A model generated the notes under the pieces. It worked only from the letters and a program-made list of their open reading frames with translations, ran no database searches and was not told the origin of the DNA. 64,000 nt of DNA from Parvularcula sp. BBD 1991-13 (lineage in GTDB: Bacteria; Pseudomonadota; Alphaproteobacteria; Caulobacterales; Parvularculaceae): assembly GCA_001657385.1 (NCBI GenBank), contig LYSZ01000002.1, forward strand, positions 434,001 through 498,000, given 5' to 3'. Of this stretch, positions 31,399 through 32,568 are shown in pieces; position 1 is the stretch's first letter; every line of letters begins with the position of its first letter. A program made the translations under genes and the position numbers.

Positions 31399-32568
31399 AT
31401 GATGAAGAAACTGATCGCGGCCGCGTCCGCCTTTTTGTGTCTCACCGCCGCAAGCGCGCAGGCAGGACTGACGCCCGGAGGCGTCAGCCTTCAGGAGGCG
31501 AATTCCGCCGTCGCTGAGGACGTGCACTTTTTCCATAACGCCGTCCTGATGCCGATCATCACCTTCATATGCGTTTTCGTGCTGGCGTTGTTGATCTGGG
31601 TCATGGTGCGCTACAATCGCGGCGCCAACGCGACGCCGAAGAAATTCAGCCACAACACCCTCGTCGAAATCGTCTGGACGGGCGTGCCGATCCTGATCCT
31701 TCTGGTGATCGCCTTGCCGTCCTTCGAACTGCTCTTCAAGCAGGACATCACCCCCGACGGCAAGCAGACGGTTATCGCCGCCGACGGCTCGGCGCGCGAG
31801 TTCGCCTTCGCCAACGATTTCCCGGAGCGCCGCATGGTCGAGAACCGGCGCCATCTTGAGGTCCTGGTGGCGAGCGAGGCGGAGACCCGCCGCCTGCGCT
31901 ATAACGCCGACTACACGGTCGAAGGCTTCGGCGAGCCTGAAATCCGCGTCGCGCTGAACGAGGCGCCGGACGCCGGCGCGCGCGTGATCATTCGCGGCGG
32001 TCAGTCGTCCCAGAACGCATCCGGGTGCGGTTTCTTCGGCCGGTATTTCGATCTTTGCGAAAAAGAGATTGTCATGGCGCCGACGATGACTCTCAAGGTC
32101 AACGGCTATCAGTGGAACTGGCAGTACTATTATCCGGACTTTGGCAATTTCGATTTCTTCTCCAACATGCTGGCGGAAGACGCGGCCAGCGAGGAGCTTT
32201 ACCGTCTCGAAGTGGACAACCGCGTCGTGGTGCCGGTGGGCGAGACCATCCGCGTGATCACCACGGCGAACGACGTGATCCACGCCTGGGCCATGCCGGC
32301 TTTCGCGCTGAAGATCGACGCCGTGCCGGGACGCATTAACGAGACCTGGTTCAAGGCTGAGCGCGAGGGCGTCTTTTACGGTCAGTGTTCCGAGATTTGC
32401 GGCGTGAAGCACGCCTTCATGCCGATCGCCGTGGAGGTCGTCTCGCGGCCCGAGTTCGAAGCCTGGGTCGACGAACAGCGCGCTTTCGCCGGGATGGACC
32501 CGATGTTTACGAATAACGACGTCAAGCTGGCGCAGGGCGACCGCGCCGAGACGGTCGTGCTGGATTAA
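31399..32568 (+). CDS. coxB: Cytochrome c oxidase subunit II with a ~100-residue insertion
   Basis: The 389-aa subunit receives electrons from cytochrome c at a binuclear CuA centre. Signal peptide (about 1-22), two membrane helices (about 46-70 and 90-112) and the cupredoxin domain (about 228-355) are in order. CuA ligands are complete: His295, Cys330, Glu332, Cys334, His338, Met341. Between helix 2 and the [11 protein letters not shown] strand lies an extra segment (about 122-226), absent from usual subunit II, with [23 protein letters not shown] and two Cys. ATG 31399 opens at the signal peptide; the frame upstream is non-coding. It heads coxB-coxA. Confidence 0.93.

Follow-up and report, generated by a model that had tools for sequence, protein, structure and literature searches.

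A probable homologue of phage tail-fiber anchor domains within cytochrome c oxidase subunit II of one bacterial family

What are the ~105 additional residues that follow transmembrane helix 2 and precede the CuA domain in COX2, subunit II of the cytochrome c oxidase, of Parvularcula sp. BBD 1991-13, and what might they do there? The gene was studied in a window of 64,000 nucleotides (contig LYSZ01000002.1, positions 434,001 to 498,000 of the forward strand)—the whole stretch of DNA that was analyzed—and was compared with the genome family to which this genome belongs, termed f1, read as Parvularculaceae and represented by 62 genomes in our collection. The insert is very probably homologous to the anchor domain at the N terminus of phage tail fibers, and it is clade-wide in f1. 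The parts of the gene and the gene that follows it are:

31399–32568, plus strand: COX2/CoxB (cytochrome c oxidase subunit II), 389 residues, with the extra domain (TIGR02866, PF02790, PF00116).
31507–31740, plus strand: two transmembrane helices (structure prediction with the 53-sequence alignment, PF02790).
31750–31998, plus strand: extra β-domain of the probable phage tail-fiber N-terminal (anchor) type, ~residues 118–200 (insert model, fold matches, hhalign).
31999–32082, plus strand: loop behind the β-domain, variable in length and bearing Cys210 and Cys220 in the window copy (alignment).
32083–32448, plus strand: CuA cupredoxin domain with its ligands (invariant ligand columns, superposition on solved COX2).
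32589–34274, plus strand: next gene, 561 residues, which we take, from its sequence motifs, to be cytochrome c oxidase subunit I (cox1) (open reading frame list).

The window protein is an aa3-type COX2 whose oxidase core and CuA site are unchanged. Its open reading frame runs uninterrupted from position 31399 over 389 residues and scores 185 bits against TIGR02866, the family of aa3-type COX2, with a curated cut-off of 147.7. Pfam assigns PF02790 (COX2_TM) to residues 26–111 and PF00116 (periplasmic domain) to residues 230–348, with no Pfam family above cut-off in between, and the COX2 of Paracoccus aligns as two separate stretches (query residues 26–126 and 223–365). An AlphaFold2 model of residues 26–368, calculated with an alignment of 53 distinct f1 COX2 sequences, keeps the canonical COX2 fold at a predicted local distance difference test (pLDDT) of 88.8. 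The helices correspond to model residues 12–49 and 62–89 (the model begins at window position 31474), and 230 residues superpose on Paracoccus 7au6_B (Z 23.1, 2.9 Å, 45 % identity). All six CuA ligand columns—presumably His295, Cys330, Glu332, Cys334, His338, and Met341—are invariant in the 53 sequences. An extra domain of ~100 residues next to intact CuA ligands is what the first-pass annotation of this DNA had claimed, and this is borne out. Its extent of about residues 122–226 needs adjustment: the extra stretch is real, and the conserved domain comprises ~residues 118–200, behind which lies a loop whose length varies. From helix 2 to the CuA strands, the window copy counts 116 residues.

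How far does the insert spread? An aa3 COX2 match spanning the insert site is present in 57 of the 62 f1 genomes, and every one of these 57 carries the insert—hence, a frameshift or assembly artefact can be rejected. The remaining five genomes show no match (G014, G073, G085), a fragment stopping short of the site (G018), or a distant paralogue alone (G005); other COX2-like paralogues in some f1 genomes (e.g., G008:C70) match in the CuA part only. By the insert profile, 55 of the 57 were also recovered in a scan of the order, whereby G009 and G062 are neither among the matches nor among the listed misses. On the contrary, the insert is missing from all 23 sister-family genomes having COX2 (24 searched; G042 is without COX2), in each of which the COX2 match splits in two with nothing between ~residues 136 and 220. 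The f1 linker measures 101–129 residues, whereas sister sequences bear 10 (five of eight) or 30–43 (three of eight). These sister lengths stem from 8 of 19 fetched sequences, the other 11 having been dropped by a motif filter that also dropped the f1 loci L017 and L039, both of which span the insert by genome search (G011, G062). Outside f1, the insert profile matched no COX2 among sampled genomes of the class (385, E ≤ 0.1), the order (299), and the phylum (398, both E ≤ 0.01), in scans that score ~11–15 candidates per genome. The insert is restricted to one family in the samples searched. The absence from other lineages, as asserted at first pass, agrees with these counts, and within these samples the segment is not common in alphaproteobacterial subunit II.

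What kind of domain is it? Predicted alone, the insert forms an all-β domain (pLDDT 89.1, predicted template modeling score 0.80) with a block of pLDDT 94–98 over residues 11–90. In a second look at the PDB with this model, ranks 1–23 are all phage or contractile-injection entries, and the first entry of another kind appears at Z 5.6; many fold matches align over model residues 6–88. The best match is 8ck1_B from the tail, connector, and tail fibers of Carin 1 (Z 9.2), accompanied by 9efk_AE of the LME-1 portal-tail (Z 9.0), the tail proteins of 7ey9_a (Z 8.7), the proximal half fiber 8dsp_C (Z 8.0, 1.7 Å over 69 residues), and the N terminus of T7 gp17 in 7boz_b (Z 7.8, 2.0 Å over 70 residues). 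By fold, the predicted insert falls together with the anchor domain of T7 gp17 (7boz_b, 8dsp_C). A library of viral models yields 18 matches at E ≤ 1e-3, 10 of them without an informative name; the eight named ones are four tail fibers (one a T7 tail fiber), one tailspike, two pectate lyase/right-handed β-helix proteins, and one ChiA1-BD-binding protein.

A likeness to tail fibers appears at the level of sequence profiles, too. Comparing the insert alignment with 23 tail-fiber rows by hhalign gives 97.4 % at E 1.2e-11 and a score of 66.4 over columns 10–89, where the best of 100 column shuffles reaches 15.6 and the reversed control 13.5; with the 17 viral rows alone, the values are 96.0 % and E 4e-9. 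In the reverse direction, a phage-only profile, A5, was built from 15 viral-contig sequences with no COX2 included and run over the 62 f1 genomes. At E ≤ 0.001, it returns 13 matches—10 COX2 inserts, the best at 1.9e-7 (G062), and three proteins that match PHROG tail families (L162, L172, and the L112 gene), of which L172 also lies above the PF03906 cut-off (55.8 versus 25.2 bits). COX2 makes up 15 of 19 rows at E ≤ 0.01 and 21 of 42 at E ≤ 1. We regard this reciprocal search as the strongest of the sequence tests. The phage alignments were seeded by the tail fibers L080 and L079, themselves found with the insert profile, and, hence, neither the hhalign nor the A5 test is fully independent of the insert. 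The fold comparison, as far as a predicted model carries it, is independent of this seeding.

Run over whole genomes, the insert profile finds, after COX2, mainly phage tail proteins. Eight weak non-COX2 matches were obtained in three scans, six of which have PHROG tail family matches in the very part that the profile matches (L077, L078, L079, L080, L154, L127); the other two are an OmpA/MotB protein (L081) and an 827-residue open reading frame of G003 that matches no PHROG (L126). In the window genome itself, the second match of the profile (E 0.47) is the N terminus of the tail-fiber-like protein L112, which has a PHROG tail protein match at E 2e-8. The likeness to phage tail-fiber β-domains noted in the first-pass annotation is backed by profile–profile comparison, reciprocal genome search, and fold comparison alike.

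Single-sequence scans of the 53 inserts are less uniform. Pfam finds DUF2460 (PF09343) at E ≤ 1 in 8 of them (best E 3.9e-4) and 13 further families in one or two members each. PHROGs adds 31 families, the commonest among those listed being phrog_7576, whose function is unknown (matched by 12 inserts, best 0.0019). Families with tail or tail fiber as their name take four, two, and two members (best 0.07, 0.0099, and 0.2 among the matches listed), and unrelated names are hit by single inserts too, e.g., an HNH endonuclease at 0.0023. The window insert alone has one NCBIfam match, at E 0.059. These one-by-one matches are weak and mixed, and, therefore, reliance was placed on profiles. Designed β-trefoils, found by phmmer with the insert against PDB sequences (best E 0.001), were not reproduced by the family profile and were therefore taken as chance. 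The latter profile reaches E 0.1 at best against PDB sequences, with designed propeller proteins through a PDG motif, and lists a phage tailspike/tail fiber, also in 8ck1, at 0.28.

DUF2460 has a solved representative, Rcc01695 of RcGTA, a distal tail protein of a gene transfer agent. The second half of this family (profile positions ~94–169) can be aligned collinearly with the insert; its first half has no match to it. By hhalign, insert and DUF2460 align with 47.1 % at E 1.9e-4, a score that none of 100 column shuffles attains; this score is 31.4 versus 66.4 for the tail fibers, i.e., the weaker likeness of the two. The Pfam gathering score of 30.4 bits lies above the 13.1–14.4 bits of those 3 of 10 singly scanned inserts that show scores. 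As a separate observation, the second half of DUF2460 (L095:1492–2121, alignment A3) matches tail-fiber N-terminal domains by profile with 86.7 % at E 4.4e-6, which suggests, at the level of sequence, that gene transfer agent tails and tail fibers share a domain. The insertion domain of the RcGTA distal tail protein is assigned to an oligosaccharide-binding fold (PMC7296036). One could hence think of a glycan-binding domain by which complex IV would be tethered to a sugar polymer of the periplasm, peptidoglycan or another. The DUF2460 half that aligns with the insert may or may not be the stretch bearing this fold in RcGTA, and the tail-fiber anchors, nearer by profile score, bind protein (PMC6872550); sugar binding appears very improbable.

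Within COX2, certain positions of the insert are under evident conservation. Pro119, Asp120, Asn139, Arg145, and Gly201 are present in 53 of 53 sequences. Asp140 reaches 92 %, and Arg202 is found in 52 of 53—the window copy bearing Gln at this position (window 32002–32004, the domain end). At all seven positions, the commonest tail-fiber residue in the joint alignment differs or is a gap. Common to COX2 inserts and tail fibers are a Gly-Asp-Gly start, a central Gly-x-Gly, and a Pro-x-x-Gly turn. The ratio of nonsynonymous to synonymous substitution rates (dN/dS) of the insert is 0.02–0.05 for three pairs among L015, L016, and L021, 0.03 for L048/L049, 0.26 for L034/L035, and 0.36 for L010/L013. 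The two cysteines, 210 and 220, were numbered correctly at first pass, while the pair turned out not to be general: two cysteines occur in 13 of the 53 sequences, none in 39, and a single one elsewhere in the insert in one. A disulfide as the core of the domain was rejected on this distribution. The pair is rather a subclade feature of the loop, in a pattern as expected of a subclade-specific disulfide.

Several observations weigh against a tail-fiber homologue that is kept for a function. The best Z of ~9 is modestly above the 7–8 often reached by unmatched models; as such values are common, the consistency of the list outweighs its top value. With plain Foldseek, nothing in the PDB reaches E ≤ 0.001 (the best value is 0.02), although phage entries fill the first six rows. 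At E ≤ 1, A5 recovers 21 of the 57 inserts and misses the one of the window, and the window insert has no Pfam or PHROG family match in single-sequence scans. PF03906 (Phage T7 tail fiber N-terminal) is matched by 0 of 53 inserts even at E ≤ 1. The PHROG tail matches L079 and L080 likewise stay below its cut-off, and a PF03906 scan of 150 order genomes found nothing over cut-off, which made this family unusable as a phage set. As to function, the mean pairwise identity of the insert is 0.44 versus 0.65 for the helices and 0.69 for the CuA domain, i.e., the insert evolves faster; its dN/dS is 0.5–1.4 in 9 of the 15 pairs shown; and no partner gene was found to track the insert, the candidate searched being the protein encoded after cox1.

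The unmatched PF03906, together with adhesin, pilin, and immunoglobulin-like folds that also match at Z 4–5, could speak for a β-sandwich that arose or was recruited independently, its tail-fiber likeness being convergence. The profile similarity, however, extends across the whole domain and lies far above the shuffles, and the reciprocal search brought up, in its 13 matches at E ≤ 0.001, nothing but COX2 inserts and tail fibers, which makes convergence very unlikely. The insert is best described as a distant homologue of the tail-fiber anchor by fold and profile, and we hold the homology itself with high confidence. It is not filed under PF03906 or DUF2460 because neither curated threshold is passed and its placement differs.

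The faster evolution, the high dN/dS pairs, the varying loop length, and the lack of a strict partner gene would also be expected of a captured phage-type domain without present function, tolerated and kept by drift as self-folding and harmless. Synonymous change in those nine pairs is probably underestimated via saturation and G+C bias; the high values therefore neither prove nor exclude relaxed constraint, and dN/dS is given little weight either way. Against such a relic stand the lack of any loss in 57 of 57 f1 genomes, the invariant Asn139, Arg145, and Gly201, and the low dN/dS of several of the closest pairs; we consider it unlikely. A further possibility is that the domain tunes electron entry by lying over or beside the CuA face, altering binding, selectivity, or access of cytochrome c. 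The insert directly precedes the CuA domain in the chain, and its mean net charge of ~−3 goes along with ~−6 for the CuA domain. The charge of the insert, however, varies from −12 to +2 among the sequences, and such tuning appears quite unlikely.

Our main explanation is a captured tail-type domain that is kept as a periplasmic protein-docking module, to which we give an even chance. A homologue of the tail-fiber anchor would have been inserted into an aa3-type COX2, in the linker that joins helix 2 to the CuA domain, and would have been retained since. A single event, no later than the common ancestor of the f1 genomes sampled, is the simplest account; both the single capture and the direction from phage to host are what we infer. 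The domain would stand in the periplasm beside the CuA head, with oxidase core and CuA site unchanged, and might serve as a static docking module that keeps another protein close to complex IV. Candidates for this partner are cytochrome bc1, a membrane-bound cytochrome c, and factors for assembly or copper delivery. The tail-fiber anchor of T7 attaches to the tail as part of a trimer. It fixes the fiber at the meeting point of adaptor and nozzle (PMC6872550), and in ciliates a Tim hexamer is brought to complex IV by an insertion in COX2 (PMC10060162). It is by these two analogies that the docking module is favored; taking the homology as given, docking itself might be judged at, or a little short of, an even balance. 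That the attachment domain of a viral tail, or of a gene transfer agent, was domesticated and now plugs complex IV, throughout the family, onto one particular partner (e.g., bc1 or a membrane-bound cytochrome c) in a clade-specific supercomplex is put forward tentatively, as a rather doubtful extension.

Between cox1 and ctaB, the window encodes a 124-residue protein with hydrophobic stretches (34545–34919). Relatives are found in 29 of 36 f1 genomes—with two diverged, adjoining copies in 16 genomes—and in 0 of 24 sister genomes, and none in genera g2, g7, g8, and g9, each represented by one genome. In G033, G028, G072, and G034, there is no hydrophobic open reading frame of at least 100 residues between cox1 and ctaB, with 0.9–1.5 kb separating the two genes in G072 and G034. 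This membrane protein is present in part of f1 and was rejected as a strict partner of the insert; it is possibly a small oxidase subunit, or an assembly factor, that is particular to the clade. Elsewhere, at a contig start in the sister-family genome G655 (L127:2–1132), the same tail-fiber-type domain (PHROG 1640, E 5.7e-8) shares one reading frame with a DsbA-like thioredoxin domain and a hydrophobic segment. No match among 20 relatives of L127 reaches its N-terminal domain, and this fusion may therefore be a second capture or a misassembly.

In the open-access literature searched, no paper was found that connects tail fibers with cytochrome oxidase, and, as far as the retrieved open-access records go, no title on oxidases of Parvularcula, Parvularculaceae, or Parvularculales or on alphaproteobacterial COX2 insertions concerns this insert. 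Among respiratory proteins, the core subunits of cytochrome oxidase are strongly conserved. The known reuse of phage tail parts concerns entire machines, namely toxin-injecting particles and gene transfer agents. A single tail-fiber domain spliced into a core respiratory subunit, family-wide, would be a different kind of reuse. The insert looks like a clean molecular marker of the family and offers a testable route to a new interaction of bacterial complex IV.

In comparison with known systems, the f1 protein has the two helices, the cupredoxin fold, and the CuA ligands in common with the Paracoccus-type aa3 COX2 (TIGR02866; 1ar1 and 7au6, chain B). With the phage tail-fiber anchor (T7 gp17 type; PHROG 1640 tail protein), the insert has the fold, the profile match across the whole domain, and the reciprocal search in common. 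It differs from this anchor in being internal to COX2, whereas the T7-type anchor is the N terminus of the fiber protein, in a six-residue stretch lacking in the tail-fiber profile, and in Arg145 and a Gly-Gly-Arg end, which are not the commonest residues in tail fibers. The COX2 of the ciliate Tetrahymena is mitochondrial and a far longer chain of 604 residues (7w5z_C2); nevertheless, both systems bear an insertion in COX2, and the one of the ciliate is said to recruit extra protein to complex IV (PMC10060162).
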